Source: a virus. From it: a DNA stretch of 38,632 nucleotides. The stretch is from IMG/VR virus record IMGVR_UViG_3300031840_000779, positions 1 to 38,632 of that record; one strand, written 5' to 3'. The notes beneath the pieces were generated by a model, which made no database searches, had not been told where the DNA came from, and was given only the letters and a program-made list of their open reading frames with translations. Shown piece by piece: positions 970 through 38,420 of this stretch (within the stretch, counting starts at the first letter, position 1; the number at the start of each line of letters is the position of its first letter). The position numbers and the translations under genes were made by a program.

Positions 970-991
970 AAGCCTCCTGCTATCGAGGCTC
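970..991 (-). promoter_or_regulatory. Translation-inhibiting stem-loop over the methylase RBS
   Basis: On the transcript the arms GAGCCTC (991-985) and GAGGCTT (976-970) form a 7-bp stem with one G-U pair and an 8-nt loop. Four of the five bases of the Shine-Dalgarno GGAGG (977-973) lie in the 3' arm, and the 5' arm is made of the last codons of com. In Mu, a stem-loop hides the mom start region and Com protein binds next to it to free it. The arrangement here is the same in principle, though with a different methylase. Confidence 0.7.
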
Positions 992-1111
992 AGGGGCCTT
1001 CTGGTGGGTATTCAGTTGCCCGCAGCGCGGGCATTTGATGCTGATCCAGGTGTAGACCGCTTCGGCCAGCTTCCGCCGGCACCGGTCACAACGCACTTCT
1101 TGTTTCGTCAT
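980..1111 (-). CDS. com: Com-like zinc-finger translational regulator
   Basis: A 43-residue protein, ATG at 1111 to TAG at 980. It has two CxxC pairs (C8-x2-C11 and C27-x2-C30) with the KCPRCGQLN segment typical of the Mu Com family, small zinc-finger proteins that bind RNA and activate mom translation. It lies directly upstream of the methylase with an 11-bp gap, matching the Mu com-mom order. It is probably translated from the long structured leader described at 1116-1234. Partner and mode of action are inferred from the Mu system; the family assignment from the motif and position is firm. Confidence 0.88.
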   Translation of the reverse strand: MTKQEVRCDRCRRKLAEAVYTWISIKCPRCGQLNTHQKAPEPR

Positions 1112-1115
1112 CTGC

Positions 1116-1234
1116 AAAGCCTTTGCGGTATCTGCTAGGCTTTCTCCGCTCGGTACCGGGCGGGGAGCCTTGCCGGCTCGCAGCGTGCTCTGCGGGTTGG
1201 GCCTGGTTAGGGTGTTACCGCACCCGCGCCAGGC
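1116..1234 (-). ncRNA. Structured RNA leader upstream of com
   Basis: The transcript from the 1.34-kb promoter would carry about 190 nt before com without an evident open frame. This leader contains a chain of perfect stems: GCCTGG/CCAGGC (1229-1234 with 1201-1206) enclosing GGGTG/CACCC (1221-1225 with 1210-1214), then CGCAG/CTGCG (1190-1194 with 1179-1183), GAGCC/GGCTC (1175-1179 with 1165-1169; these two share base 1179), and a 7-bp AAAGCCT/AGGCTTT hairpin (1137-1143 with 1116-1122) ending 4 nt before the com ATG. Such packing over 120 nt suggests a functional RNA: a leader that controls com, or a separate small RNA. I do not recognise the family with certainty. Confidence 0.5.
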
Positions 1235-1308
1235 GCTCCTCTTTTCCTGTGCTGGTTACATCTGAGACTCCGTCGGTGCCTGGGTAGTGATGAAATTAAG
1301 TGCCTTAG

Positions 1309-1353
1309 ATCATCGCCCAGAGTGCCGGCGCCGTCGTTTGAACTCGGGCAAAG
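1309..1353 (-). promoter_or_regulatory. Late promoter P4 (com-methylase)
   Basis: This is the weakest copy of the four-member late promoter set. The dyad reads, on the minus strand, CTTTG-N8-CAAAC (1353-1336) with the shared core TTTGCCC..GTTCAAA. A -10-like GATGAT lies at 1314-1309 with the same 21-bp spacing as two other copies, predicting a start near 1302. The outermost dyad bases are degenerate, so activation may be weaker or later than at the other copies. Confidence 0.65.
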
Positions 1354-1370
1354 CTCGGGTGGGTAGCGGA

Positions 1371-7978: not shown

Positions 7979-8949
7979 TACAACGGCACCTTCCGGTATG
8001 CATAGCCGAAGGTCCAGCTGTTCACCTCGCCTTGCGGACCGTTCACGGTCGCCCCTCTCTTCTTAACCGGAAAGACGAGCCATTCATCAGGGCCGATCGT
8101 AATCGTCTCTCCAGGCACCAGGTTCTTCATGTTCACCATTCGTAGGTCCAGCGGGGCGCCGGCAAAAAAACCCAGCTGATTCCGGATATTGACAACGACC
8201 AGAAGGTTATTAAACGGAGTGACGGCGTTGACCGTATTGGGCGTGGAATCTGAGTAAAACTGGAACGGGGTGCGGTTCACGTTTGATCCATAGGCACGCA
8301 TCGGTCCCCACGCCGTCGAGGAGCTGCTGGGACTGGCAATATCAAACCGGGCCCATTCACTGGTGTATCCGGCGACGTCCATCCGCACGGCCCCAGACCC
8401 GCCTGATCGGGATGTTGCGCAGTCGAACGGTACCGCGTGGTCCCGGTCATCAGCACGAGCATGTTCTGGGCTCGTGTCAATCATCAGGTAATACCAGAGC
8501 GTCCCGGTGAAGTACTCGCCCCCGACGTAGTCCCCTTGTGTCTCGAGCCGGCCAAAATGCAGATGGGCGAACTCACCAGGCACTATCTCAATCACGCAAT
8601 GGATGTACTGCTGCGTCCCAAAGAGGTGGTACGCCGTGAAGGGCCCGCGCAAGCCATTCGTGCGCCCAGAGCTGAAGCCCGCGGATGTGCCGGGCTGGTT
8701 GGTGTGAGAAGCGCCTGCATCGAACCCAGTTTGGCCGAAAATCTCTATCGATGGTTCGGGATTGGCGACGGTGTTGATGTCGTCCTCTTGAGGGTTCGCT
8801 ATCAACGTGAAGTAGCCTGCCGTCGCGTGATGCAGAGCCAGTTCGTTGGTGTCATCCCGATCGATCGTCCAGCCCAGTTCATCGGCAAATGCACGGATAG
8901 TCCCGAGCATCGCAGTAACGCCTGTTGAGACGCCGGTTTCGTAAGCCAT
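7978..8949 (-). CDS. Putative tail structural protein (323 aa)
   Basis: ATG at 8949 to TAA at 7978, one base before the upstream stop region of the 405-residue gene. The sequence shows a short N-terminal helix with a W-T-I-D pattern, then beta-rich sequence with FTAYHLFGTQQYIHCVIEIVPG followed by AHLHFGRLE, and a C-terminus ending in WTFGYAYRKVPL. Proteins of this type appear as a pair with a similar neighbour between tape measure and hub in transposable siphophages. The precise role is unknown. The base composition is less GC-rich than in the head genes. Confidence 0.6.
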   Translation of the reverse strand: MAYETGVSTGVTAMLGTIRAFADELGWTIDRDDTNELALHHATAGYFTLIANPQEDDINTVANPEPSIEIFGQTGFDAGASHTNQPGTSAGFSSGRTNGLRGPFTAYHLFGTQQYIHCVIEIVPGEFAHLHFGRLETQGDYVGGEYFTGTLWYYLMIDTSPEHARADDRDHAVPFDCATSRSGGSGAVRMDVAGYTSEWARFDIASPSSSSTAWGPMRAYGSNVNRTPFQFYSDSTPNTVNAVTPFNNLLVVVNIRNQLGFFAGAPLDLRMVNMKNLVPGETITIGPDEWLVFPVKKRGATVNGPQGEVNSWTFGYAYRKVPL

Positions 8950-8950
8950 A

Positions 8951-10168
8951 TCAGGTTAACCTCACTGCGCCGTATTCCGTCCAATTCGTCCGGTTCATGT
9001 TTTGAACCACCAGATGGTCCGCACCATCGACAGAGACGATGTTTTCCGAGGCGTTTGCTGTCCCGGTGATCCAGTAGATCCCATCCAACTCACCAAACTG
9101 GTTGATTCCGGCATAGTCACTCTGCGTGCATAGAGGGATTAGAGGCAGCAAGGTATAGCTTCCGTCAGGCGCGGGCTGTATCTGGGGCCCTGACCAATCA
9201 GGTTCGCGGTCGTCGATTTTGCCGAGCCCTTGCAGGTGAGTAGGGAAAAGCTGCAGGTACTGAGTGCGCCAGTAGGAATTCCCGTTGGAGCCGTCTCTGT
9301 TTCTGATTTGACGCCAGCCGACGTCGCCAACGTAGAGGTAGGATCCGAAGCCCGGGTTGAAGATTAAAGATTCATTCGTGTCCCTGGATGACCAGCGCGC
9401 CTGACTGTCTCCGGTGGTGCCAGCCACCAAAAGCGGATAAGGGAACTGGCTCGGAGTGCCGTAGGGCAAGATTTTGCCCAGGTACATCACCTGATATGTG
9501 GTACTGACCTTGGCTACGACAATGACCCGCTGGCCATTGGCGATAAACCAGTACGGGGTTTCGCTCTGCCACAGCAGGGTGTAGGCATCGGGGCTGCGAC
9601 CGGGCTGCCCATCAAAGGTGAATGTAGACTCAAAGCCTATCGCCCCGGCGACCTTCCAGTTGTAGTAGTCGTTCGCTGCGCTCTGGTAAGCAGCGATGTT
9701 TATGTAGATTTCTTCCGTACCGGTGAGCCCCGGGGCGCGCAGGTAATAGTCCTGGTCGAACGCGCCATCCAGTCCGGCGGCCAGCAGCTCCCACGCGGAT
9801 CCCGCCGCGCTCATGACCCCCTGGGTGACGTCCCACGTGAACACGTCGCCCACCACGTAGCCGGTACCGGTGATCAGGAACTCGATTAGCCCGTTGTCGT
9901 AAGCGGTACCGGTGGTGGCGTCGGCGGTGGCGCCGGTGACCGAGCCGTTGACCGTCCATATCTCCTCGCCGGGGATATCCGCGTTGGTGCAGGTGAGGGT
10001 CCAGGTCTCGGTCACCGTGGCCGGCGCGGTGGCGATATCGGTGATGGCGCCGGGGCCGTCGCCGGTGAACTGCGGCTCGGCGGACCAGGTGCCGTGGCCG
10101 CAGACGAAGCGCTGCAGGCGGTGCAACAGGTCCAGGTGGCCGCTGGCCGTGCCGATCTCGACGGGCAT
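8951..10168 (-). CDS. Putative tail structural protein (405 aa)
   Basis: A 405-residue protein; ATG at 10168 overlaps the tape-measure stop by one base. The first half has repeated short beta motifs with many Thr, Ala and Asp (TETWTLTCTNADIPGEE, TGTGYVVGDVFTWDV), the second half is rich in Tyr, Trp and Asn. It shares with the next gene the closing pattern of a surface beta-domain protein (DHLVVQNMNRTNWTEYGAV). No enzyme motif is seen. The context says tail; function is otherwise unknown. Confidence 0.6.
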   Translation of the reverse strand: MPVEIGTASGHLDLLHRLQRFVCGHGTWSAEPQFTGDGPGAITDIATAPATVTETWTLTCTNADIPGEEIWTVNGSVTGATADATTGTAYDNGLIEFLITGTGYVVGDVFTWDVTQGVMSAAGSAWELLAAGLDGAFDQDYYLRAPGLTGTEEIYINIAAYQSAANDYYNWKVAGAIGFESTFTFDGQPGRSPDAYTLLWQSETPYWFIANGQRVIVVAKVSTTYQVMYLGKILPYGTPSQFPYPLLVAGTTGDSQARWSSRDTNESLIFNPGFGSYLYVGDVGWRQIRNRDGSNGNSYWRTQYLQLFPTHLQGLGKIDDREPDWSGPQIQPAPDGSYTLLPLIPLCTQSDYAGINQFGELDGIYWITGTANASENIVSVDGADHLVVQNMNRTNWTEYGAVRLT

Positions 10169-12915
10169 TAGCCGCCTCCTTTGATCAGTTGGTTGAACTT
10201 GCTGGGGTTCCGGCTGATGTGCAGCTCTAGCATCTCTTCGCCGGCCGGGCCGCGCAGCGCGTCGGCCACGACGTCTTCGGAGAGGATGGGCAGCAGCCGC
10301 TGCTTGAGCTGCGCCGGCGGAATGTTCGCGGCCAGGGTGGCGGCCGGGCTTTCCATGATCGCCGGCGACGGCTGCACCAGGCCGCCGTTGGCGTAGCCCC
10401 GGAAACCGGCGAGCGCGGCCATGCCCTGCTGCCGGAACGACTCCATGAACTGCTTGGCGCCTGGCTGGCGCATGACGTGCGCCGGCTGCACGTACTCGCC
10501 CGCATGAACGACGCCGGCGACGGTGTACTTGGTGCCCGGGCCGGTCCAGCCGCCCTCTGCGAAGCCGCCCGCCACGGCGCTGGTGGCGTTGGCGGCCGCG
10601 ATCTGGGCGGCGCCGGCGGCGAAGGTGGCGGACAGGCTGGTGGACAACGTCGCCGCGCCAACCGCGAACGAACTGGTGAGCGACGTGCCGATGGTCGCGG
10701 CGCCGGCGGCCGTTGAGGTGGCAATGCTGGTACCGATCGTCGCGGCACCGGTCGCGGTGGACGCGGTGATCGCCGTGGACATGGTGGCGGCGCCGGCGGC
10801 GGTGGCGGCGGCTTCCGTCGCGGCCTCGGCACCACCGGTCAGCAGGTTGCTGAGGCCCTGAGTGGCCATCTGTGCGACGTTCTGAGCGGCCAGCTGCAGC
10901 ATGGCGTCGGCGATGGCCTGGGCCACGCCACGGACCGTGTCTTCGAGGTCCTGGGTGCCTTTGGCGAGCTTCTGCAGGCCGTCCGCCAGTCCCTCTTCGA
11001 AAGAATCCCGCAGAGTGGTGGCGAACTGGTTGGTGACCAGACGCAGATTCTGCATCTCGGCGCGCAGATCCTTAACCCGCTCCAGCGCGGCCTTGTCGCC
11101 GGTGACTTCGGCCAACTGCTGCATCTTCGGCAGCAGCCCGTCGACCTGGTCGGCGGTGGCGCGGTGCAGCTCCACCAGCTGCTCGCGGGCGTTCAGCTCG
11201 CTGATGACGCCGGCTTCTTGCTGCGCCTGGATCCGGCTCTCCTGGCGGGACTGTGCCGCGAACATGCGGTCGATCTGCCCCTGCAGCTCCTGCAGGCGAG
11301 CGCTGGCGACCTCGACGTTGATCAGGCTGTTGATGAGTTCGACGCCGGCGTCGTCACCGCGCGCTTTGAGGCGCTTCAACAGATCCGCGTACTCGGCCTC
11401 CAGCTCGGCGCCCACGGCTTCGGCGCCACGGCCCTGACCCTCCAGCAGCTGGTTCTGGATGTCGTTCAGGGCCGCCGCGTCCTTGGTCGCCTGGGTCAGC
11501 TTCTCCTGCTCGGTGAGCGCTTTGTTGGCCGCCTCGGCGCGCTCCAGCAACTTACCGGTGAGACCCTGCTGGGTGATCTCATACTGGCGAACGGCCGCAT
11601 CGGAGGCCTCGTACAACTCCGTCTCGCGCTCCAAGGCCTCGACGAATTTGCGCTGGCGCTTTAGTCGCTTTTCGGCCTCTTTGTCGTTGCCGCCACCCAG
11701 CAGCGGTTTGTCGTCGTCATCGTCGTCTTCGTCCTTGTTATCGGTGGACGATGATTGACCGAGCTTGCGGGCCAACTCCTGGGATTCGTAGGCGCGCTTG
11801 AGCTGGGCTTCGGTCTCAGCGATCTGCCGCTTGATCTCTTCGTCGCCGGTGAACACCAGGCCGACGTCCATCTCCAGCCACGGTGTGTCCGGATCCAGTT
11901 CTTTCCTCAGCCCCGCCAGCTTCTGCTCCAGCCGGGGGATGTCGTTCGCGGCAATGCCGTTGATCTTCGCGGCCAGCTCTTCGCCGAGCCAGCGCGTAAA
12001 CTCGACCCCTTCGGTGGTCCCTTTCGCCAACCAACCGACGAGGGTCGCGAATGCCGTCCCGAGCTGGACCACAGACTTCTGGAACTGAGGGTCGGTGACG
12101 ATAGTGCGCAGTTCATCAATCGAGTCGACAAAGCCGGTCGTATCGGTTTGCCCAAACGTCACCACCAAGTCGTTGCGCAGCTGCTGCAGCGCTTGGCCGA
12201 CCGTGCGCTCCATGTTCTGGAAGTCGTCGTTGATAGTGTCAGCCGTGCGCAGCAGCGCCTTTGTCACCGCTTCGCCGGTGAGCTGGCCCTCTTGGCCCAG
12301 CGTCCGCAGCTCGCCGATGGTCACGCCCAGCCCCTTAGCGATCGCTCTCGCCAGGCGAGGGCTGTTTTCCAGGACGGAATTCAGTTCCTCACCACGCAAC
12401 GTCCCGCTCGCGATGCCCTGGCTGAGCTGCAGCGTCGACGACGCCGCTTCCTGCGCCGACGCGCCGGACACGATGAACGACTGATTGATTGCCCGGGTGA
12501 CAGTGAGCAGCTGCTGCTGGTTGAGATCCAGCTCTTCGGTGGCTCGTGCCAGGCGCGCGTAGAGGTTTATCGTCGGTGCCAGGCCCTGGCGGGTTTCCTG
12601 AGCCAGCGCATAGTTCGCTTCCCAGGCGCTGTTCAGCTCCTCCTGGCTGTCGGTCACCAGGCGTAGCTGACTGCGCAAGTTGGTGTAGGTATCCGCTGCA
12701 CGGACGATCTCACGCAGCAACAGCGCGCTGGCGACGGCCGCCATGGTGTTGCGGAGTTTTTTCGCGGCACCATCCAGGGTGCCCAGATCCCGGCTGGCAC
12801 GCCGCGCCCGCTTACCAGATTGGTCCAGTCCTTTGTCGAACTGGTCCAGCTGGCGCAGGGCGCTTTTAAGGTCCGCGCGGATGCGGAGTGCGAGATCGAG
12901 GTTGTCGGAGGCCAT
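10168..12915 (-). CDS. Tail tape measure protein
   Basis: A 915-residue protein that sets tail length and is ejected with the DNA. The N-terminal region has a helical segment (LRIRADLKSALRQLDQFDKG) and the tape-measure domain with SGASAQEAASSTLQLSQG and LRGEELNSVLENSPRLAR (about 155-195), followed by long coiled coils with an acidic run (DNKDEDDDDDDK) and Gln/Arg-rich helices. Five 15-residue repeats lie at residues 705-779. Its length is short for siphophage tape measures, which suggests a tail in the range of 130-150 nm by the usual 1.5 Å per residue. There is no good Shine-Dalgarno before the ATG; the P3 promoter predicts a leaderless mRNA. Confidence in the family is high. Confidence 0.93.
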   Translation of the reverse strand: MASDNLDLALRIRADLKSALRQLDQFDKGLDQSGKRARRASRDLGTLDGAAKKLRNTMAAVASALLLREIVRAADTYTNLRSQLRLVTDSQEELNSAWEANYALAQETRQGLAPTINLYARLARATEELDLNQQQLLTVTRAINQSFIVSGASAQEAASSTLQLSQGIASGTLRGEELNSVLENSPRLARAIAKGLGVTIGELRTLGQEGQLTGEAVTKALLRTADTINDDFQNMERTVGQALQQLRNDLVVTFGQTDTTGFVDSIDELRTIVTDPQFQKSVVQLGTAFATLVGWLAKGTTEGVEFTRWLGEELAAKINGIAANDIPRLEQKLAGLRKELDPDTPWLEMDVGLVFTGDEEIKRQIAETEAQLKRAYESQELARKLGQSSSTDNKDEDDDDDDKPLLGGGNDKEAEKRLKRQRKFVEALERETELYEASDAAVRQYEITQQGLTGKLLERAEAANKALTEQEKLTQATKDAAALNDIQNQLLEGQGRGAEAVGAELEAEYADLLKRLKARGDDAGVELINSLINVEVASARLQELQGQIDRMFAAQSRQESRIQAQQEAGVISELNAREQLVELHRATADQVDGLLPKMQQLAEVTGDKAALERVKDLRAEMQNLRLVTNQFATTLRDSFEEGLADGLQKLAKGTQDLEDTVRGVAQAIADAMLQLAAQNVAQMATQGLSNLLTGGAEAATEAAATAAGAATMSTAITASTATGAATIGTSIATSTAAGAATIGTSLTSSFAVGAATLSTSLSATFAAGAAQIAAANATSAVAGGFAEGGWTGPGTKYTVAGVVHAGEYVQPAHVMRQPGAKQFMESFRQQGMAALAGFRGYANGGLVQPSPAIMESPAATLAANIPPAQLKQRLLPILSEDVVADALRGPAGEEMLELHISRNPSKFNQLIKGGG
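10579..10803 (-). repeat. Five tandem 45-bp repeats (15-residue units) in the tape measure gene
   Basis: In frame, units of 15 residues follow one another: TAAGAATMSTAITAS, TATGAATIGTSIATS, TAAGAATIGTSLTSS, FAVGAATLSTSLSAT and a degenerate FAAGAAQIAAANATS. Each corresponds to 45 bp. The consensus is a Gly/Ala/Thr/Ser-rich unit in a hydrophobic stretch that may cross the host membrane during DNA ejection. Confidence 0.85.
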
Positions 12916-12921
12916 AGCGGG

Positions 12922-12966
12922 ATGATGGCGCCGACGGTGGGCAGAGTCTTTTGAACGAGGGCAAAA
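12922..12966 (-). promoter_or_regulatory. Late promoter P3 (tape measure and tail)
   Basis: The minus strand carries TTTTG-N8-CAAAA (12966-12949) with the conserved core TTTGCCC..GTTCAAA and a -10-like CATCAT at 12927-12922, 21 bp further on. The start predicted 6 nt after the -10 is the A of the tape-measure ATG (12915). The promoter follows the terminator at 12973-12988 and so begins a new transcription unit. Confidence 0.75.
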
Positions 12967-12972
12967 CCAAGC

Positions 12973-12988
12973 GGCGGCCGGAGCCGCC
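12973..12988 (-). terminator. Hairpin with UNCG tetraloop after the chaperone gene
   Basis: Three bases after the frameshifted T stop (12991) the transcript forms GGCGGC-UCCG-GCCGCC, a perfect 6-bp GC stem closed by a cUCCGg tetraloop, followed by GCUUGGUUUUG. The U-run is imperfect, so termination may be partial. It separates the head/tail-tube unit from the tape-measure unit. Confidence 0.6.
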
Positions 12989-12990
12989 GA

Positions 12991-13643
12991 TCAGTCTTTC
13001 TTCAGGGCACGCATGTGGTCATTCGCCTGGTGTTTATCCGCGCCGAACGCCGCCCTGACGTCCAGGAAGAGATCGGCGCGGTGGTGGCGCTCTCGGCGCT
13101 GTGCAGCGTCGTAGTAGAGCTTTAGCTGTCGCTCGGTGTATCGCCCGAGTCGGTCGGCGGGGTGTCCGTCGGCGATGAGTGCGGCGTAGACGTCCCGCCA
13201 GCGGAACTCCGTGTCGCCGTCGTTCGACCGTGAACGCGAGCCACCTGCATCTTCCGCTGCACAGCCCGAATAAAAAAAGCCGAGTTGACCACCCACCAGG
13301 TGTCCATCAGCAGGCTGCCGTCCCCATCGCTGAGTCCCTGGATGAATTCGAGATCCTGGTCGATCGAGGCCGCCATCAGCTCCACCAGAAGCCGGTGGTG
13401 CTCGGCGAGCAACGCATAGATGCTGTCCAGGTCCGAGTCACCGCCGCGCATGACCTGGTACAGCTCATCGATCAGCGGCGCGGCCGCCGCACGGATCCGC
13501 AGGCCCTCGACGAAACCGTACTCACGGACGGTGACCGTCTCACCCCCCACGTGGATCTCCCGATCCGGGTGGAGGATGGACAGATCGTCCTCGGCCTCGG
13601 CCTGCTGCTTCGCCTGCTTTTTCTTGGGATGCCGGCGTGCCAT
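12991..13643 (-). CDS. Tail assembly chaperone GT, -1 frameshift product
   Basis: A predicted 217-residue fusion: the first 124 codons of the G frame (13643-13272), a -1 slip, then 93 codons in the T frame (13272-12991). The T frame has no plausible start of its own between the slippery site and the conserved segment EFRWRDVYAALIADGHP, yet that segment and the following YTERQLKLYYDAAQRRER look like genuine coding sequence. In lambda and many siphophages a minority GT fusion and a G protein both assist tape-measure folding and tail-tube assembly. The arrangement between tail tube and tape measure fits. Not demonstrated experimentally. Confidence 0.75.
13122..13643 (-). CDS. Tail assembly chaperone G
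   Basis: A 173-residue protein read without frameshift. It starts with a Lys-rich tail (MARRHPKKKQAKQQAEAEDD), then a compact domain with REIHVGGETVTVREYGFVEG and LLMDTWWVVNSAFFIR. The C-terminus is Thr/Ser/Pro-rich and low in complexity, as is common for the unshifted product. It would bind the tape-measure protein together with GT. The ATG at 13643 overlaps the tail-tube stop by one base (TAATG), indicating translational coupling to the abundant tube protein. Confidence 0.78.
   Translation of the reverse strand: MARRHPKKKQAKQQAEAEDDLSILHPDREIHVGGETVTVREYGFVEGLRIRAAAAPLIDELYQVMRGGDSDLDSIYALLAEHHRLLVELMAASIDQDLEFIQGLSDGDGSLLMDTWWVVNSAFFIRAVQRKMQVARVHGRTTATRSSAGGTSTPHSSPTDTPPTDSGDTPSDS
13272..13278 (-). 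other. Slippery heptamer T TTT TTT for -1 frameshifting
   Basis: Seven T residues on the coding strand fall as GCT TTT TTT ATT in the G frame, i.e. X XXY YYZ with all T. A -1 slip reads on in the T frame (TAT TCG GGC…) without a stop until 12991. A downstream pseudoknot or stem was not established. Confidence 0.75.
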
Positions 13644-14410
13644 TACGCGCCCTCGTCCAGCAGCTCGATACGGCCAAAGCCACCGAGTGCCGGATCCGGC
13701 TCGCTCAGCGGGTCGAACAGCGCGGTACCGCTGAGCGCCAGCTCACCGAAGGACTCGTTGATCAGGTCCAGCTGGTTCACCGGATTGAACTTCAGGCGAT
13801 ACAGGCGCGCGCGGATACGATCCCCGCTGTCATCGACGGTGTTGACGCCGTCGAGCATCAGGTAACGGATCGGTGGACGCTCGGTGAACATGGTCACATC
13901 GGTGCTGGCGCCGAACTCATAATCCGCCTCGAACGGCGCGGTAAAGCCGCTGAGATCGCTGAGGATTTCGAGCACGCCACCCGGCACCGACTCGATGCGG
14001 TAGTCCGTGTCCTCCACTAGCTCCGTCGGTGTGCCCGCTGAATCGGACAGGACCAGGCTACTGATGTTGCCGCGATCCAGAATCACCCGGTCACCGATGG
14101 CGAGAGGCTCGGGCAGCGGCTCGCCAGTCTTGGAGCCAGACGCCACGGTCAGCGCCTTGCCGTAGAGGCCGAGCGCCAGGTTCTTGGCGTCGCCGTGGCG
14201 AAGCGTGAGGTTGAAGGTCACCTCGGTCGCGGTGTTCAGGGTCGCGCTGGTCTGCCGGTTGCCGGAATAGCTTTCCTGCCGGTTTTCCTCCGTGACGCTC
14301 ATCGCGATGTTCAGGAGGCCAGCGTCGTTCACCCAGCGCATTGCGCCGGGCTTACCATTGGCCAGGCGCTCACCCAGATACACTTTGCCTTGTAGCGAGA
14401 AATCCCTCAT
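13643..14410 (-). CDS. Major tail (tube) protein
   Basis: A 255-residue protein beginning MRDFSLQGKVYLGERLANG, which resembles tail-tube proteins of transposable siphophages. It continues with beta-rich sequence (ATEVTFNLTLRHGDAKNLALGLYG, VLEILSDLSGFTAPFEADYEF) and ends with YRLKFNPVNQLDLINESFG, also frequent in this family. The tube forms the channel for DNA. The gene lies between the neck-type genes and the chaperone, the standard place. No sheath gene lies next to it, which argues against a contractile tail. Confidence 0.82.
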   Translation of the reverse strand: MRDFSLQGKVYLGERLANGKPGAMRWVNDAGLLNIAMSVTEENRQESYSGNRQTSATLNTATEVTFNLTLRHGDAKNLALGLYGKALTVASGSKTGEPLPEPLAIGDRVILDRGNISSLVLSDSAGTPTELVEDTDYRIESVPGGVLEILSDLSGFTAPFEADYEFGASTDVTMFTERPPIRYLMLDGVNTVDDSGDRIRARLYRLKFNPVNQLDLINESFGELALSGTALFDPLSEPDPALGGFGRIELLDEGA

Positions 14411-14634
14411 TGGTCAGCCCCCTTGTTGCTGTCTTTGCCGCCGGTCTTCTCCGGCGGGGCGGTCTCGGCGGGCTGGTAGCCGCCGGGGCGGGAGCCTTCC
14501 AGCTTCCCGATCTTCTCCAGCCACGCCTTCTGGCGCGGCGTGACTTCGATCTGGTCCCCTTTTTTGCACGGGCGGCCTTTGTGTTCGTGCGGGCCGGCCA
14601 GGGTGACCGTCACAGTCTTTTGCTTGGTGGTCAT
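14407..14634 (-). CDS. Small conserved phage protein (DUF7210/DUF2635-like, 75 aa)
   Basis: The start is the ATG at 14634, overlapping the gp37-like stop by ATGA. The N-terminal half (VTVTLAGPHEHKGRPCKKGD followed by VTPRQKAWLEKIGKL) is a small compact domain seen in many Mu-like phages between the gp37-like gene and the tail tube. The C-terminal third is Pro/Gly/Lys-rich and probably flexible. Function unknown; the context suggests a connector or tail accessory part. Confidence 0.65.
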   Translation of the reverse strand: MTTKQKTVTVTLAGPHEHKGRPCKKGDQIEVTPRQKAWLEKIGKLEGSRPGGYQPAETAPPEKTGGKDSNKGADQ

Positions 14635-15092
14635 GGGGCGTTGCCTCCGATAAAGCGGTGAGTTGAAAAGACTTCCATCCAAAGCAGCATGTCGGCGTCG
14701 TAGTCCAGCACTTCCGCCTGGCGCCACTTGATCTCTCGGAACTGGCCGAGGCCAGGGGTCCAGCCCATCAGGGCTTCCCGGACCCGGCCAATCAGCGGCC
14801 GGGCGTCCTCAGAGGCGGCGTGCCCCAAGTTGTCTCGGAAATTCCGCAGCCCCAAGATCACGCCGAACGTGCACTCGATCCTCTGCCGCCCGCTGCTCCG
14901 CGCCTGGCGGTCGGCTGAGGGGTCAGAGTCACCTTTCTCCTGGGCGAGAACCACGTAGGCGCTGGGCGGCCGGAGATCCCGCAAGCTCTTGACGGCCGCA
15001 TAGTCAGCGGCCTGACCGACCTGCTGGAACTCGGGGACGCTCTCGCGCAGATGCTCCGCGATCAGGTCGGTATCGAGCGGCACGAAGGTCAT
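14631..15092 (-). CDS. Mu gp37-like neck protein (DUF1834)
   Basis: A 153-residue protein with LIAEHLRESVPEFQQVGQAA near the start and the closing VLDYDADMLLWMEVFSTHRF, both in keeping with the DUF1834/Mu gp37 family. Together with the gp36-like neighbour it belongs to the head-to-tail connection or tail terminator set in Mu. ATG at 15092 overlaps the gp36-like stop by ATGA, so the pair is coupled. Confidence 0.78.
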   Translation of the reverse strand: MTFVPLDTDLIAEHLRESVPEFQQVGQAADYAAVKSLRDLRPPSAYVVLAQEKGDSDPSADRQARSSGRQRIECTFGVILGLRNFRDNLGHAASEDARPLIGRVREALMGWTPGLGQFREIKWRQAEVLDYDADMLLWMEVFSTHRFIGGNAP

Positions 15093-15604
15093 CGGAACCT
15101 CTTTAGCTGATCACGGCTGAAGACGTTGGGGTCGGATTCGAACTGGACATCCAGTTGAGCCGGATCCGATTCGACCGGGTCGTTCTGACCCAGGCTGAAC
15201 TTGCCGTCTGCGGTAAGCTGCAGGAACCGGACAGCATCCTTGTAGTCGCGCACGATCGGATCGTCGCTGTCGTCGCCGAGGCGGTTCTGGTGCAGGTGAT
15301 AGCGCGTAATGGCCCGAGCCCAGGTGACGACGATCCCCGGGACCGGGTCCAATGGCAGATAGCCGCGCCGGGAGAGAAACCCATCTATGAGGGCTTGAGC
15401 ATCCGCCGTCGCATCATCGATGCGCTGAAGAGCGTCATCGGCCAAAGCGACCTGGTCCGGCGTCCAGCCAGCACGGTCCGCGCCCAGCAGGGTGGCTTCC
15501 ATCAATTCCGGATCCACCATCGGCTTGTGCGCGGCGGTGGCGACCTGGGCCAGCTCTCTGGCGCCAGGCCGTTCCGCAAGTTGTGCATGGCTGATGTAGC
15601 TCAT
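15089..15604 (-). CDS. Mu gp36-like protein (DUF1320)
   Basis: A 171-residue protein starting MSYISHAQLAERPGARELAQ. The segment ADAQALIDGFLSRRGYLPLD followed by ITRYHLHQNR and VRDYKDAVRFLQ is typical of DUF1320, the Mu gp36 family thought to form part of the head-tail connector. It sits in the Mu order between the gp35-like gene and gp37-like gene. Confidence 0.88.
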   Translation of the reverse strand: MSYISHAQLAERPGARELAQVATAAHKPMVDPELMEATLLGADRAGWTPDQVALADDALQRIDDATADAQALIDGFLSRRGYLPLDPVPGIVVTWARAITRYHLHQNRLGDDSDDPIVRDYKDAVRFLQLTADGKFSLGQNDPVESDPAQLDVQFESDPNVFSRDQLKRFR

Positions 15605-15610
15605 TACCGT

Positions 15611-16150
15611 TTAGCTCTCTTCGATCGGAAACGTGCAGCGCTCAACCTTCAAGTTGGGCTCTGACTCCAGGGCTTCCAGCTGGTCCTCAGACAGCGCTTC
15701 GAGAGCGATGCCCACGCCGTTACGGTCAAAACGAAACCCAGCCCGGCGAAAGGACTCGGGCACCGAGGTGACCCATACAGCATCGATCTCGCCCGACGGC
15801 GGATCCTCGCCTGGCTTCGGCCCCTGGGAGCCCGGCGACGGCTGCTCAGCTTTGCGGGCCTCGCTTTCCGCCGCCGTGGTGTCTTGCGTCGCTGCCCCCG
15901 TATCCTGCGGCTTGTCCAGGGCTTGGTCTCCCGAAGCCTGGGTCGACGGCTCAGCGGCCTTCGGCTCAGCCGGTGCGGGGGTATCGGATGCCTTGGTTGG
16001 TTCAGATGCGGACGGCTGTGTGGCCGGCGCTTGATCACTCTGAGCACCCGTGCCCTTGGTCTTGTCCGGACTGGATGTCTGATCCTGGCCTTTGGCGCCC
16101 TTCGCCGCCTGGGAGCGGGTAGATGCGGCCTTTCTCTTGTTCGCTGCCAT
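15611..16150 (-). CDS. Mu gp35-like protein with long low-complexity N-terminus
   Basis: The 179-residue protein has a Lys/Ala/Ser/Thr/Pro/Gln-rich N-terminal part (about residues 1-120) with no fold expected. It is followed by a short domain (VWVTSVPESFRRAGFRFDRN, then LSEDQLEALESEPNLKVERC) that matches the small Mu gp35/HI1506-type domain. The family's role in the virion is not settled. The disordered extension is unusual and may interact with the capsid or be a linker. Confidence 0.72.
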   Translation of the reverse strand: MAANKRKAASTRSQAAKGAKGQDQTSSPDKTKGTGAQSDQAPATQPSASEPTKASDTPAPAEPKAAEPSTQASGDQALDKPQDTGAATQDTTAAESEARKAEQPSPGSQGPKPGEDPPSGEIDAVWVTSVPESFRRAGFRFDRNGVGIALEALSEDQLEALESEPNLKVERCTFPIEES

Positions 16151-16172
16151 GAGACGTTCCTCTTTATGGGCG

Positions 16173-16209
16173 CCCGAGCACCCCCGATCCGTCGGAGGTG
16201 TCGCTCGGG
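16173..16209 (-). other. Long hairpin downstream of the major capsid gene
   Basis: In the 98-bp gap between the capsid and gp35-like genes the transcript has CCCGAGC (16209-16203) pairing with GCTCGGG (16179-16173), with further pairing inside (CACC/GGTG). No U-run follows, so it is more likely a stability element or partial attenuator for the abundant capsid message than a terminator. Confidence 0.5.
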
Positions 16210-16248
16210 TGCGCTCTTCCTTGATCCTCGTTCACTGCGACTACGCGG

Positions 16249-17142
16249 TTATGCCAGCCACGGAGTGGCCAGGACGTCCACCACGTCGCGGTTAATGTTG
16301 GTAGCGCCGTTCGCAGAGCGCTCCGCTTTGACGACTTCCAGAGCCGCTGCACGATCGCTGGGCGACACCACGAGCAGCTTCGGGCGCACGCCCAGCGGTC
16401 GACCGTTATCGCCCTTCAGGCCGCTCATCTGAGCGTAAAGATCGTTGAAGGAAGAGGCGTCGATGGCTTCTTTACTGGAGAACGCCAGCTGCCACAGCCC
16501 GTAACCCGCATTCAGACGACCGTCCACCCCATACACGTACTTGTTCTGGAAGAAGGTGTTGTCGTCGGTCTCGCGGTCTTTGGTCACGAAGCTGTACGGG
16601 CGGCGCTTCTGCAGAATGATCGGCCGGATGACCCGGGAGGTATCCAGGAGGAACCACGGCTTGCCGCTGCCGCCCTGGTGGTTACTGACGGAGGTTTCCT
16701 TTCCGTTCTTGTCGAGGACCGGATGGTCGGTATCGAAGAAGTTCTGCCCGTCGTAGCACTCGCCGGTAAAACCGTTCTGCAGCAGGCTGTAGACCAGTTC
16801 AGCGGGATGTTCGCGAGCATCCTGGCCCATCTGTGCCATCAGCGGCGTAAACAAGCCGTAGCTGTCGTCTTCGATGGCCTCACGACCAACGCCCACCGTG
16901 TTCTCGAACGTCTTGTTCTTGATGGTGAAATCGTGGGTGCCGATGTTTTGGATCACCCGGTCGCCGAGCCATTCACGGAACCTGGTCGTCGAGCCGAGCC
17001 AGCCGTAGGTTTCTTTCGAGGTCGTGGACGTGGTCTCCAGAACGATCTGGTCGTAGTCCACCTCGGCGCCGTTGAAGGCTTCCTGAAACGCGGCTTTGTA
17101 GCCGGTGAACAGGAAGTCCAAATTCTGGCGATTAATTTCCAT
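16249..17142 (-). CDS. Major capsid protein, Mu gpT family
   Basis: A 297-residue protein of the Mu-like gpT family. Typical features are the N-terminal INRQNLDFLFTGYKAAFQEA, then GWLGSTTRFREWLGDRVIQN, TIKNKTFENTVGVGREAIED, ENFFDTDHP-type sequence at QNFFDTDHPVL and the C-terminal PKLLVVSPSDRAAALEVVKA. It forms the icosahedral shell. Neighbours are the protease/scaffold and small decoration-like protein upstream, as in Mu. Confidence 0.95.
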   Translation of the reverse strand: MEINRQNLDFLFTGYKAAFQEAFNGAEVDYDQIVLETTSTTSKETYGWLGSTTRFREWLGDRVIQNIGTHDFTIKNKTFENTVGVGREAIEDDSYGLFTPLMAQMGQDAREHPAELVYSLLQNGFTGECYDGQNFFDTDHPVLDKNGKETSVSNHQGGSGKPWFLLDTSRVIRPIILQKRRPYSFVTKDRETDDNTFFQNKYVYGVDGRLNAGYGLWQLAFSSKEAIDASSFNDLYAQMSGLKGDNGRPLGVRPKLLVVSPSDRAAALEVVKAERSANGATNINRDVVDVLATPWLA

Positions 17143-17166
17143 GCTCTTGCCTCCTCGGCTTGGCGG

Positions 17167-17571
17167 TTAGATCGCGACCCACACGCCGGTCGCGTCGACG
17201 TCGTCGATTCTGCCAGCGATGGATCGGGTTCCAGTTCCGTCGGTAGCCGCCACCGTGTGGTCATCCACGATGTAGGCGTCGGAACCGATGTGCGCCCGGG
17301 TGATTTCATCCGCGTCGGCGCTGTTGTCGAAGCAAAACACTCCCCGGGAGGAGCGAATGCGCTGGTCGCCGGCCGCACCATCGGTATTGTCGATGTGCTC
17401 GTCGGCACGGCCCCGGGCCACCAGATCGGTCGCCGTGGCGCCAGGTACAGCATTGCCACTGGCGTCCAGACACATCAGGGCACCGGCGAAGATGCGGGTG
17501 TTGGCAGCAACCGGGTCGCTATGCAGATCCCCCGCTTTCAGCAGGGTGTTACGGTCTTTGCTCAGGGCCAC
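17167..17571 (-). CDS. Small head protein, possible capsid decoration protein
   Basis: A 134-residue protein starting with GTG at 17571, preceded by AAGGAGG at 8 nt. It lies between the protease/scaffold and the major capsid genes. The sequence has a short N-terminal segment (KDRNTLLKAGDLHS) and beta-rich repeats (AHIGSDAYIVDDHTVAA, AGRIDDVDATGVWVAI) like decoration or head-fibre proteins found at this place in D3112/B3-type phages. The role is inferred from order and fold pattern. Confidence 0.68.
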   Translation of the reverse strand: MALSKDRNTLLKAGDLHSDPVAANTRIFAGALMCLDASGNAVPGATATDLVARGRADEHIDNTDGAAGDQRIRSSRGVFCFDNSADADEITRAHIGSDAYIVDDHTVAATDGTGTRSIAGRIDDVDATGVWVAI

Positions 17572-17573
17572 GG

Positions 17574-18197
17574 CTAGTCCTCCTTCGCGGCTTTGTATTG
17601 ATCAGCGGTGATCCCCATGCGGGAGCACACCGCCAACTCGTCCTGGGTGAGGCCGGTCTTGTCATCGGCCGGCGCCTCACCTCTGGTCTGTGAACCCTTC
17701 AGCGCCGCCAGGGGCTCGGCGGCGCCCAGATACGCGGTCAAAGCCGCGACATCTTTCTTCGCCAGACCCCGTGCCCACGACTCCAGGGGTTTCACCAAGC
17801 GCCCATCTTCCAGCGCGCTTTCGATCATGGCGTCGACGTCCTTTTCTTCGGACGCCTTGACCCGGGCGGAAAGCGCGGTGATCTCGTGCTTCAGACCGTC
17901 GACCGTATCGATCGGGACGTACTTCGCGGGATCCGGACCGGCGGCTGCCTTTGCTTTCAAGGCAGTGCATGCCGTTACAACGGCCTGGTCATCGGCGTTT
18001 TCGTCCAGCGAAAGCGCTTTGCGCAGATCAACCAGCGGATCCTTCTGCAGACGAGCAGACAATGCGGCCACCACCTGCTCTTCGCCCGCGTCGTCTTCCA
18101 GGCCGAGGCTGGCGTTCAATGCAGTGAGGGCTTTGTCCTCCTCCACATCGTGAGCCAGGCCCATGGCGGTAAGCAGCATCTTGAGCAGTTCATTCAC
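17574..18197 (-). CDS. Scaffolding protein from an internal start (Z-like)
   Basis: Same frame as the protease gene, starting at codon 178 (GTG). A consensus GGAGG lies 8 nt before it, stronger than any site before the full-length start. The predicted 207-residue product is acidic and helical with Ala/Glu/Asp-rich heptads (TALNASLGLEDDAGEEQVVA, TAYLGAAEPLAALKG), as expected of a scaffold removed from the procapsid. Inferred by analogy to Mu I/Z. Confidence 0.6.
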   Translation of the reverse strand: MNELLKMLLTAMGLAHDVEEDKALTALNASLGLEDDAGEEQVVAALSARLQKDPLVDLRKALSLDENADDQAVVTACTALKAKAAAGPDPAKYVPIDTVDGLKHEITALSARVKASEEKDVDAMIESALEDGRLVKPLESWARGLAKKDVAALTAYLGAAEPLAALKGSQTRGEAPADDKTGLTQDELAVCSRMGITADQYKAAKED

Positions 18198-18728
18198 GGG
18201 GTCTTCCTCCGTTTCGTGGTTAATCCCGAACGTCGCTGCGGCCCGAAGCGCTATTGCCTCCATGCCGTCGATCGCCGGGGTGTTGGTAAGCGCACCCATA
18301 TGGACGTCCTGGACCTCGCCGGTGCGTCGGTGATAAGCGAAGACAGGGCTGAAATATCGATATTCACCATTTGTGACGAATTCGCGGGCGCGACTGGTCA
18401 GCTCGATCGTTGCCCAGAGGCCACTGCCATCCCGCCACTCCAGTGACTTCCACCAGCCAGCGGCGGGTGCCGGCTGACCGTTCTCGTCCTTGTTGAGCGT
18501 CTGATGCTCATAGTCCAGAACCAGCGGGGTCTTCCTGGCGTTGAATCGCTCGATGACACGCTGTGCGATGTCAGCGTCGATGTACCAGCCAGGCACTTTC
18601 AGCTCGCGACCGTCACTCGGTAAGAATCGGCCGGCGGGCGTCACCTGCAGAGACACCAGGTTGTCGGTGGGCGCTGTCGGCAGCGAGAAGCTGCAGGGCG
18701 CAATGGCTATGAGGCGCTTTCGTTTCAT
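17574..18728 (-). CDS. Head maturation protease with C-terminal scaffold (Mu gpI family)
   Basis: A 384-residue protein. The N-terminal half has the phage I-like protease pattern (VPGWYIDADIAQRVIERFN, PLVLDYEHQT, FVTNGEYRYFSPVFAYHRR, ALTNTPAIDGMEAIAL). The C-terminal half is helical and charged like a scaffold. In Mu the scaffold Z is made from an internal start in I; here GTG at 18197 has GGAGG 8 nt upstream (18210-18206) and would give a 207-residue scaffold beginning VNELLKMLLTAMGL. The main ATG at 18728 coincides with the predicted P2 start, so its mRNA may be leaderless. The weak AGGA 10 nt upstream would lie outside such an mRNA. Confidence 0.9.
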   Translation of the reverse strand: MKRKRLIAIAPCSFSLPTAPTDNLVSLQVTPAGRFLPSDGRELKVPGWYIDADIAQRVIERFNARKTPLVLDYEHQTLNKDENGQPAPAAGWWKSLEWRDGSGLWATIELTSRAREFVTNGEYRYFSPVFAYHRRTGEVQDVHMGALTNTPAIDGMEAIALRAAATFGINHETEEDPVNELLKMLLTAMGLAHDVEEDKALTALNASLGLEDDAGEEQVVAALSARLQKDPLVDLRKALSLDENADDQAVVTACTALKAKAAAGPDPAKYVPIDTVDGLKHEITALSARVKASEEKDVDAMIESALEDGRLVKPLESWARGLAKKDVAALTAYLGAAEPLAALKGSQTRGEAPADDKTGLTQDELAVCSRMGITADQYKAAKED

Positions 18729-18734
18729 AGCGCC

Positions 18735-18780
18735 ATCATCCTGGGCGGTGGCCAGCGGGGTCTTTTGAACGAGGGCAAAA
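18735..18780 (-). promoter_or_regulatory. Late promoter P2 (protease-capsid unit)
   Basis: TTTTG-N8-CAAAA on the minus strand (18780-18763), with the same TTTGCCC..GTTCAAA core, and a -10-like GATGAT at 18740-18735, spaced 22 bp. The predicted start lies at the ATG of the protease/scaffold gene (18728). Confidence 0.75.
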
Positions 18781-18939
18781 CTTGAACAATTTGGCGGGCA
18801 CAGCGCCGGGGACGACAATCGCCGGGCCGACCCGGGGGGATTTAGGGTCGACGAGGATTTATAAACGATTTATGGGCCTGGAAAGCGATCTCGGGCTACC
18901 GTCGGAGGGTTACGGGGTCGCGGCGGCTTCTAGGGCCGC
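18781..18939. other. Non-coding G-I gap near the prophage midpoint, candidate gyrase site
   Basis: No supportable gene lies here. It contains GATTTAT-AAAC-GATTTAT (about 18863-18880), an AT-rich island in a GC-rich genome, and a weak stem GCGGC/GCCGC (18923-18939) just after the gpG stop, without a U-run. The gap is between the gpG-like and gpI-like genes, about 18.8 kb from one prophage end and 19.7 kb from the other. Mu has its strong gyrase-binding site exactly between G and I. The assignment is by position only. Confidence 0.4.
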
Positions 18940-19401
18940 TTAGCCCCGGGCCGCTTTTTCGAGCCGTATGCGTGCCAAACGGACCATGTGGAGGTCCTGA
19001 TCGTCATTGGTGCCGAGCCACTTTCTAGACGGAATATAGATCGGCCCGACGATGGGATGTTGGATCCAACCGCCGAGGTGCTGAATTGCCCCGTAGACAC
19101 GGTTGGTACCGAACTCCAATCCGCCGGCATCGTACTGGCCGACGAGCGTACCGCTGAGATAGCCCCGGAACGTCAGGATCTTATCCTTGTTGCGATGCTT
19201 ACGCTTCCGCCAGGCCGGGCTGAGCGCCTCCCACGGCTTGCCCTCCGGCGACCGTTGCTCACGGAACCGCTCGCGGTGCACGCGGCGAAGGTATTCAATA
19301 ATCTCCTGATAGAGCGGGATCGGGTTCTGCAGCTCGCCGATCATGCGGCCGAGCGTGGCCTGGGCCCGGGAGCTATCCAACTCGATTCTGGCGCCTGCCA
19401 T
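18940..19401 (-). CDS. Virion morphogenesis protein, Mu gpG family
   Basis: A 153-residue protein of the phage virion morphogenesis (tail completion S/gpG) family: short N-terminal helix region, RVHRERFREQRSPEGKPWEA, then LSPAWRKRKHRNKDKILTFRG and GTNRVYGAIQHLGG. In Mu gpG acts in head-tail joining. The start has a strong AGGAGG 6 nt upstream of the ATG at 19401. It is the last gene of the P1 unit. Confidence 0.92.
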   Translation of the reverse strand: MAGARIELDSSRAQATLGRMIGELQNPIPLYQEIIEYLRRVHRERFREQRSPEGKPWEALSPAWRKRKHRNKDKILTFRGYLSGTLVGQYDAGGLEFGTNRVYGAIQHLGGWIQHPIVGPIYIPSRKWLGTNDDQDLHMVRLARIRLEKAARG

Positions 19402-26292: not shown

Positions 26293-26604
26293 CTATAGCC
26301 CCAGCGTCAGGCCAAGAATGCATGCCAGGACAATGAGCGAGCGAGCGACCAGAGCGGCCGCTGCCAGGACCACCATCCGTGTTGCATCATCGCCCTCGGC
26401 GCGCCTTATGAACTGGTCGATAAATGTGTGCGGGCGTGCGTAGGGAAAGAGGCTGCGGCCGATCCAGTAGCCGACGACGCCGCCGAGAGTCACCAGCGCG
26501 CCTTTGTACAGAACGACGAGTAATTGCTGCGGCTGGAACAACGCGATGGCCAGGAGCAAGCCGATAGTGATCATCAGCCAGCCAGTAAGACGAGGAATAT
26601 GCAT
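26293..26604 (-). CDS. Putative holin (2-3 membrane helices)
   Basis: A 103-residue membrane protein: helices at about 7-25 (LTGWLMITIGLLLAIALF), 28-48 (VVLYKGALVTLGGVVGYWIG) and 78-100. The pattern LFPYARPHTFID between helices is typical of putative 2/3-TM holins of Mu-like phages. It is the first gene after promoter P1, directly before the endolysin. GGAG lies 7 nt before the ATG. Confidence 0.82.
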   Translation of the reverse strand: MHIPRLTGWLMITIGLLLAIALFQPQQLLVVLYKGALVTLGGVVGYWIGRSLFPYARPHTFIDQFIRRAEGDDATRMVVLAAAALVARSLIVLACILGLTLGL

Positions 26605-26639
26605 GAGCTTCTCCGGTTTCCAATGTCAGAAAACGACTA

Positions 26640-26659
26640 CGCCCCCAACATAGGGGGCG
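26640..26659 (-). terminator. GC hairpin ending the lysogeny unit, overlapping P1
   Basis: CGCCCCC-TATGTT-GGGGGCG on the minus strand: a perfect 7-bp stem with a 6-nt loop, followed by TAGTCGTTTTC. It would act as a terminator for the transcript from the repressor side (lipoprotein stop at 26695). Its loop is the predicted -10 hexamer of P1. The U-run is weak. Confidence 0.5.
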
Positions 26660-26691
26660 CAGCGAAGAAACTCTTTTGAACGCGGGCAAAA
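26647..26691 (-). promoter_or_regulatory. Late promoter P1 (lysis-packaging-head unit)
   Basis: TTTTG-N8-CAAAA on the minus strand (26691-26674) with a -10-like TATGTT at 26652-26647, spacing 21 bp, predicting a start near 26640 and a 35-nt leader before the holin ATG (26604). This copy has a usable leader and a GGAG before the start codon. Confidence 0.75.
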
Positions 26692-28040: not shown

Positions 28041-28080
28041 CACTTTTCCTGTTGACTCATGGTGCAGATACCTGCACCAT
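28025..28080. promoter_or_regulatory. Repressor-early operator region
   Basis: A 22-bp dyad with 9-bp arms ATGGTGCAG and CTGCACCAT around ATAC (28059-28080). The half-site recurs at 28025-28035 (ATGGTGCAGAT), 34 bp away, about three helical turns, and overlaps the repressor start codon. A -35-like TTGACT (28052-28057) for the plus strand lies just before the dyad; its -10 (CACCAT, 28075-28080) is weak. Repressor and/or the gp16-type regulator are the likely binders. Confidence 0.7.
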
Positions 28081-37638: not shown

Positions 37639-38083
37639 TGCAGACCAGAAGCGCCGGGATCTCGCGAAGATACACATCGCTCGCAAAGAGCTGGCGATGG
37701 ACGAAGACGCCTACCGCCTGATGCTGCAGTCAGTCGCCGGCGTGACGTCCTCGGCGAAGTTGTCGGCGCGTGGCCGGGCCAAGGTGCTGCACAGGCTGCG
37801 CCAGCTGGGCTGGAAGCCGAAAACCAGCGCCCGCCCTCGGCGCCGCGTGACAGCCCAGCAGCCCCAGGATAAGAAGATCCGGGCGATCTGGCTGGATCTC
37901 GCTGAGCAGGGAGTCGTTCGCGACCGCTCGGAGCAGGCGCTGGGGCGCTACGTGAAGCGCCAGACCGGCGTCGAAGCGCTCGATTGGCTGGACGAACGCC
38001 AGGCCGCGAAGGTGATCGAGGCCCTCAAGGCCTGGCGCCAGCGTTTCATTGATGCAAAAGGGGATACCGATGAACCAGCGTGA
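37631..38083 (+). CDS. gemA: GemA (Mu gp16-like, DUF1018)
   Basis: A 150-residue protein with the DUF1018/GemA pattern: KIHIARKELAMDEDAYRLML at the N-terminus, RAKVLHRLRQLGWKPK, then KKIRAIWLDLAEQGVVRDRS and ALGRYVKRQTGVEALDWLDE. In Mu GemA influences host gene expression and DNA supercoiling-related functions. It stands directly before the activator gene as in Mu. Confidence 0.9.
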   Translation: MADADQKRRDLAKIHIARKELAMDEDAYRLMLQSVAGVTSSAKLSARGRAKVLHRLRQLGWKPKTSARPRRRVTAQQPQDKKIRAIWLDLAEQGVVRDRSEQALGRYVKRQTGVEALDWLDERQAAKVIEALKAWRQRFIDAKGDTDEPA

Positions 38084-38420
38084 CTCCAACATGGAAATCC
38101 GCCGCAACGAGCTGCTGGAGGAAGTGCAGGCCCACACCCAGCAGATTCTGGTCGAGCACGGCATCGATGAGGATCTGGCCGAACAGGCCGGCTGCGCGAT
38201 CTGCGATCGGCTGGCGGACACCTGGGGTGGGCAAGTCGTGACCTTTCCGAAGGATCACCGTTTCCGACTCTCTCTTCGTGACCTGAAGATCTACGAGCAG
38301 TTCGACGGCCGGAATCACAACGAGCTGGCGAAGAAGTACAACCTGACAACCCGGGCCATCTATAAGATCATCAGGAGGGTGCGTGAGCGCGGAGACCCGA
38401 ATCAGCCGCGTCTGTTCTGA
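38070..38420 (+). CDS. mor: Mor-type transcription activator (Mor/C family)
   Basis: A 116-residue protein from ATG 38070 (GGGGA upstream), overlapping gemA. N-terminal dimerisation helices (about 12-50), the beta segment GGQVVTFPKD (54-62), and the C-terminal HTH (RNHNELAKKYNLTTRAIYKI, 81-100) are the three parts of Mu Mor and C. No second family member was found in the window, so this single activator probably drives the four late promoters. It is the last gene of the early operon, close to the prophage end. Confidence 0.9.
   Translation: MNQRDSNMEIRRNELLEEVQAHTQQILVEHGIDEDLAEQAGCAICDRLADTWGGQVVTFPKDHRFRLSLRDLKIYEQFDGRNHNELAKKYNLTTRAIYKIIRRVRERGDPNQPRLF

Follow-up and report, generated by a model that had tools for sequence, protein, structure and literature searches.

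Predicted leaderless late mRNAs and a predicted start-site hairpin at the protease/scaffold and tape-measure genes of a Mu-like phage

Where do the messenger RNAs of the protease/scaffold and tape-measure genes of a transposable phage begin? The question is raised by a single virus record, IMGVR_UViG_3300031840_000779, whose positions 1-38,632 make up the stretch of 38,632 nucleotides analysed here (the window). Judged by its genes, the window belongs to a B3/D3112-like transposable (Mu-like) phage. Its plus strand carries the genes for MuA (phrog_310), MuB (phrog_296), GemA and an activator of the Mor family, its minus strand those for head, tail and lysis functions. Motif, spacing and conservation make it quite probable that two of the latter are expressed from leaderless mRNAs, with the predicted first transcribed base (+1) being the A of the ATG: the tape-measure gene (10168-12915, minus strand; phrog_2335, 2e-107; N-terminus conserved), with +1 at 12915, and the protease/scaffold gene (17574-18728, minus strand; phrog_328, 2e-109; placed by N-terminal alignment), with +1 at 18728.

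Three late promoters, P1, P2 and P3, all on the minus strand, share the dyad TTTTG-N8-CAAAA. The motif TTTTGCCCNCGTTCAAAAGA[CG] was found at 12966, 18780 and 26691, reading leftward, and a scan for the 21-bp dyad motif with up to three mismatches gave 3 matches in the window against 0 in 100 shuffles. At P3, the predicted activator dyad, TTTTGCCCTCGTTCAAAA plus GAC, occupies 12946-12966 (dyad proper 12966-12949) and is followed by the -10-like hexamer CATCAT at 12927-12922, which stands at the same place in the relatives L034, L058, L103, L113 and L036. At P2, the dyad plus GAC lies at 18760-18780 (dyad proper 18780-18763) and the hexamer GATGAT, whose phase is conserved among relatives, at 18740-18735. 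The dyad of P1 (26671-26691; dyad proper 26691-26674) carries two differences, and its hexamer TATGTT (26652-26647) forms the exact loop of the inverted repeat CGCCCCC/GGGGGCG. Although the hexamers deviate from TATAAT, the A at -11 and the T at -7 are present.

The spacing of these elements places the predicted RNA start. At both P2 and P3 six bases separate the TAnnnT-like -10 from the ATG, so that the A of the ATG is the seventh base after the hexamer, the usual place of +1. Counted from the dyad, the hexamer, with A as its second and T as its sixth base, starts at base 40 in P1, P3 and a degenerate fourth site, P4, and at base 41 in P2, and the ATG falls at base 52 in P3 and base 53 in P2; both elements of P2 are shifted by one base relative to P3, and the six-base gap is thus constant. 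With +1 at the ATG, the dyad is centred at -42.5 (P3) and -43.5 (P2). The gene behind P1, a holin gene (26293-26604, minus strand; phrog_1528), starts at dyad base 88; with a predicted +1 at 26640, its mRNA would have a leader of 36 nt containing CGGAG before the ATG at 26604, in keeping with an earlier sequence-only reading that gave P1 the same promoter form with a leader and GGAG. A standard sigma-70 -35/-10 promoter had 0 matches within 12700-19100, and an ordinary promoter of this kind was rejected as the driver.

The regions before the two start codons offer the ribosome little. Pairing with the anti-Shine-Dalgarno sequence at -18 to -5 was -1.7 kcal/mol at P3, -4.1 at P2 and -6.6 at P1, against about -10 to -12 at strong window starts, a comparison in which some listed starts are mechanical open reading frame starts and several others are weak too. 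The claims that the tape-measure start has no Shine-Dalgarno (SD) sequence and that the protease gene has only a weak AGGA outside its transcript both agree with these data: the AGGA lies at 18742-18739, overlaps the -10, and would be left out of an RNA begun at 18728. A rival view is that both genes are translated from long read-through transcripts with an SD-less leader, the dyads marking something else. The gene order permits read-through from P1, and several other window starts likewise have no SD. Such an account, however, leaves the base-exact phase of the -10 to the ATG and the dyads about 43 nt upstream without a reason, and the read-through RNA is predicted to be folded at the start; directly upstream of P3 there is also a terminator-like stem (12972-12989, minus strand), in which the TTTT of the P3 dyad serves as the T run, though such stems were equally frequent in shuffles. 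Altogether, read-through as the source of translation appears distinctly improbable.

The arrangement was then examined widely in protease upstream regions. The 80 best loci were taken from each of two protease families, and six phage records and the window were added. From family A, 12 of the 80 (L142, L148, L150, L159, L167, L175, L177, L193, L195, L198, L201 and L203) were dropped because the ATG was unclear, the frame disrupted or the upstream DNA too short, and from family B 2 of the 80 (L222 and L251); among nine phage loci considered, L287, L288 and L289 were excluded from the counts. The resulting 153 upstream regions were reduced to 101 non-redundant ones (<75% identity), P2 of the window itself dropping out through redundancy with L124, a 97% relative that was placed in the 'other' class owing to its AGGA. 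As controls, 228 non-redundant SD-led starts from the same loci were used. An A/T pair in -10 phase (-11/-7 or -12/-8) was found in 72/101 protease regions and in 12/228 controls (Fisher p ~7e-36, uncorrected for shared ancestry). The pair stood at -11/-7 in 42 of the 101 and at -12/-8 in 31, and at no other shift from -30 to +5 in more than 9. Both families contributed (38/43 and 34/58), and an SD of at least 4 bases was absent in 88/101. The sequence-only reading had noted the spacing of -10 and ATG at both genes, and this spacing is confirmed and goes beyond chance.

The 68 regions that are in phase and have no SD of at least 4 bases were taken as the leaderless class. Base -1 is C in 65 of them, and a dyad of at least 7/9 pairs occurs in 38, about 25 of these centred at -42 to -45.5, with letters that vary between lineages. 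The combined spacing of the -10 and the activator site points to a single RNA start, the A of the ATG. A closely related possibility is that the RNA begins at the ATG or 1-5 nt before it, at mixed sites: relatives differ in the gap from -10 to ATG, which measures either 6 or 7 nt, and the choice of +1 by RNA polymerase is often mixed. The near-constant C at -1 together with A at +1 favours a single start, making mixed starts improbable. It is also conceivable that the bases before the ATG are conserved because translation begins further upstream, since the frame ahead of the ATG often reads GGM, as in an HGGM-like conserved peptide. That idea deserves almost no credence, as 33/68 regions have an in-frame stop within 60 nt upstream, in 41/68 no further in-frame start follows the last stop within that span, and, as described below, the hairpin arms vary while their complementarity stays.

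Returning to the leaderless reading, relatives with the same dyad extend it to the second gene. Scans for the dyad pattern yielded 49 viral and 66 genomic stretches; most matches in genomic contigs were scattered singles in unrelated genomes, probably due to chance, and were not used as promoters, so that only those of Microbulbifer, Alcanivorax and Pseudomonas WN033 were retained. The tape-measure ATG falls at dyad base 52 in L004 and L027; in L034, L038, L051 and L087 (Alcanivorax); in L058, L103 and L113 (Microbulbifer); and in L036. The protease ATG falls at base 53 in L004, L011, L019, L020, L040 and L045, including, in L020 and L040, a protease of a different subfamily. In addition, phage JBD25, with a 57% identical protease, has a variant dyad at the same spacing to the ATG, and LPB1 has CACCAT, then six bases, then ATG. 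For the tape measure, the leaderless phase is limited to four lineages (that of the window, the L034 type, the L058 type and L036); its use as a second wide test was abandoned, as the N-terminal motif was matched by only 25 non-redundant starts. Most B3-like tape-measure loci have about 20-30 nt without an SD between a -10-like box and the ATG. In JBD25 (L121, 17380-17491), a terminator-like hairpin abuts the variant dyad before the tape-measure gene, which likely has a leader of about 23 nt and no SD. The proposal of leaderless mRNAs from P2 and P3 is supported by the -10 phase, the dyad position, the C at -1 and the four tape-measure lineages, the 5' ends themselves being predictions. The accompanying view that a leaderless structural-gene start would be unusual does not hold for the protease: among its sampled relatives the leaderless arrangement appears to be the commoner one and not peculiar to this phage.

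Two features that the sequence-only reading had not included are P4 and a hairpin at the start codons. In RNA read through P2, and only there, a hairpin can form at 18709-18739 (minus strand) with the start codon in the loop (-20.3 kcal/mol over 60 nt, z -2.27); in RNA read through P3, one can form at 12904-12935 (minus strand) with the start codon in the 3' arm (-13.0 kcal/mol over 60 nt, z -1.47). RNA begun at the ATG folds weakly (-2.2 kcal/mol at P2, -0.8 at P3), and the read-through fold at P1 reaches -27.9 kcal/mol over 60 nt (z -3.91). In many relatives a stem places the -10 inside its loop or close to it, and its 3' arm adjoins the ATG. An inverted repeat symmetric about the hexamer with one fixed loop gave a weak signal (loop 6: 2.39 vs 2.24 pairs of 6) and was set aside; the stem drifts by a few bases, and free-register stems and fold z-scores were therefore used. 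With dinucleotide shuffles scanned along -116 to +23, the z minimum lay at the start in both classes (-2.23 at -28 to +7 in the leaderless class, -2.42 at -36 to -1 in the rest). Repeated with controls, the leaderless class had a mean z of -2.21, 68% of regions being below -1.5 (controls 0.07 and 6%), and the remaining class -2.47 and 64% (controls 0.01 and 7%).

The arms of these hairpins covary, in that the sequence changes and the complementarity stays. Stems of at least 6 pairs ending at -8 to -1 were found in 27/68 regions, compared with a mean of 7.8 and a maximum of 14 in 60 row permutations, and in 16/40 at a 55% redundancy cut (mean 3.2, maximum 6); at two upstream control positions they occurred in 6/68 and 5/68, near the permuted maxima of 5 and 6. 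The predicted RNA start falls within the hairpin or downstream of it, and the local transcript would be without the 5' arm. Among SD-led relatives, L223, L218 and L227 have the SD region in the 3' arm of a long hairpin beside the ATG, of up to 13 pairs in L223.

The same repeats could instead act in DNA, as a cruciform or by supercoiling-aided strand opening around the -10. Leadered P1, whose hexamer is precisely the loop of a 7-bp repeat, speaks for this. The mismatches within stems, however, comprise G-T 17 times, A-C 5 times and others 18 times (G-T vs A-C p 0.017), an excess that leans towards RNA pairing; moreover, the repeat of the SD-led class lies near the ATG, and the mapped start of Mu gpI lies inside a repeat. 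A role in DNA is accordingly rated as unlikely, though it retains some weight. The P1 repeat (window 26625-26660, minus strand) is followed by the T-rich TCGTTTTC and is terminator-like, with the -10 in its loop. Because the T-rich stretch comes after the stem, this hairpin may shield the lysis genes from RNA arriving from upstream; alternatively, it could act at the DNA level.

Several observations weigh against the leaderless starts and against the RNA hairpin. The -10 phase is absent in 29/101 protease regions, and family A start codons were picked manually, although without loci with multiple ATGs the phase was still found in 35/40. In L006, L028 and L046 the dyad is identical, yet the protease genes are leadered: an A still stands at base 51-53, preserving the predicted RNA start, but it belongs to an ATC codon, and the gene begins further downstream. 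In the B3-like loci the tape measure has no leaderless start, and the S1-mapped start of Mu gpI lies about 24 nt before the ATG of Mu_3F6 (PMC4461284, Table 1; L123; to within 1-2 bases). As for the hairpin, that of P3 is by itself inside the shuffle range, and the P2 stem is not kept in the 97% relative L004, which folds otherwise (-15.9 kcal/mol, z -1.72). In read-through RNA the AUG is unpaired with a value of 0.44, against 0.49 in controls, so pairing is no higher; AUG burial was rejected as a general measure, and the claim made is one of a structured start region, not of a buried AUG. Finally, an inverted repeat also flanks the -10 of leadered P1, which control of translation at the AUG leaves unexplained; a hairpin that sits at a leadered promoter, where a strong repeat holds the -10 in its loop, cannot be only about the AUG.

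From the observed motif, spacing and conservation and the predicted folds, the following course is proposed. P2 and P3 would be activator-dependent sigma-70-type late promoters, at which a dimer of the Mor/C family, bound to the dyad centred about 43 nt before +1, would replace the -35, and RNA polymerase would take the TAnnnT-like -10. The Mor-family protein of the window (38049-38420, plus strand; PF08765, 3.8e-34) is the likely binder. Transcription would begin at the A of the ATG and yield leaderless protease/scaffold and tape-measure mRNAs, with 70S initiation at the 5' AUG. Less certainly, the -10 together with the bases preceding the ATG would form the 5' arm or loop of the hairpin, which would arise only in RNA from upstream promoters and cover the start region; RNA from the local promoter, without the 5' arm, would remain free. 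Expression of both genes would thereby be tied to their own late promoter. A late promoter inside a start-site hairpin, with RNA begun at the AUG, is the simplest account of both features, and leaderless late mRNAs combined with silencing of read-through RNA of the T4 gene e kind are considered, with good confidence, the best explanation; a function of the hairpin is less sure than the leaderless starts. More tentatively, and with somewhat less than even conviction, these sites may constitute a compact Mu-like element, in which the same DNA serves as the -10 of an activator-dependent late promoter and as the 5' arm or loop of the start-site hairpin, read-through RNA being silenced and RNA begun there leaderless and active, and in which compensatory changes have preserved the hairpin through exchanges of activator sites and protease families. 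The hairpin suggests a reason for the leaderless design other than host state, a link to which is speculation.

P4 is a decayed match to the dyad motif (1353-1336, minus strand), with the hexamer GATGAT (1314-1309, minus strand) at the same distance from its own dyad, and its position is that of the Mu mom promoter. It heads a mom-like late unit (window 980-1354, minus strand), in which it is followed by a Com-like zinc-ribbon gene (PF10122) and then by an adenine methyltransferase gene of the D12 class. Taken together, the four sites are arranged much like the lys, I, P and mom promoters of Mu, except that the third has moved to the tape measure. Elsewhere, a small HTH gene at 28059 (plus strand) has no SD-like sequence ahead of its ATG and may be a further leaderless start. 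Among the laboratory phages, the deposited protease start of DMS3 (L284, 7995-8121) lies 126 nt downstream, inside the gene, of an ATG that matches the conserved N-terminus; a leaderless start seems to have been overlooked in the annotation, and the missing leader is a possible reason for this. In D3112 (L289), near 8001, the protease N-terminus in the record is out of frame relative to relatives.

If the proposal is true, a head operon is driven by leaderless starts across many phages that infect Gram-negative bacteria, in which leaderless mRNA is generally regarded as rare. It would also show a way for a phage head gene to depend on its own promoter within a long late region. DMS3 and JBD25, as laboratory phages, are suited to a direct test.

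Among known systems, the closest in promoter form are the late promoters of Mu that depend on C (lys, I, P, mom) and its Mor-dependent middle promoter, in which a dyad near -43 to -46 replaces the -35 and the -10 is non-consensus (PMC4461284, PMC4390567), with the Mor site centred at -43.5 from +1 (PMC4390567). The window matches this type in the distance of the dyad from the predicted +1 and in encoding a PF08765 activator. Mu likewise has several late promoters, ahead of lysis, protease, tail and mom genes (PMC4461284), whereas the dyad sequence of the window differs and its third promoter precedes the tape measure. The start of Mu gpI was mapped with S1, its site being located by the oligonucleotide table (PMC4461284, Table 1), and Mu I mRNA carries AGCAGGA in a leader of about 24 nt, in contrast to the window, where the predicted start is at the ATG. 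As far as the accessible open-access literature goes, no report was found of a leaderless gpI or tape-measure mRNA in Mu-like phages, or of a start-site hairpin combined with a leaderless start in Mu-like late genes. A -10 beside the open reading frame that makes the mRNA leaderless is reported for Deinococcus-Thermus (PMC12340547), in host genes of another phylum, and in the portion of that report consulted neither an activator dyad nor a hairpin is described. Leaderless translation in E. coli is established for lambda cI, which has a 5'-terminal AUG and no SD (PMC4965119, PMC9031893); here, unlike cI, head and tail genes stand behind predicted activator-dependent late promoters, conserved across diverse phages. 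For the hairpin, the counterpart is T4 gene e, as well as soc, 49 and I-TevI, in which the 5' strand of a stem at the start contains the late promoter, only the longer RNA folds, and the long early RNA of gene e is silenced about 100-fold (PMC3014915). The present loci resemble it in having a start-site hairpin in the long RNA and a predicted RNA start inside or after the 5' arm; they differ in that T4 hides the SD or AUG of a leadered RNA, whereas here there is mostly no SD and the RNA would begin at the AUG.

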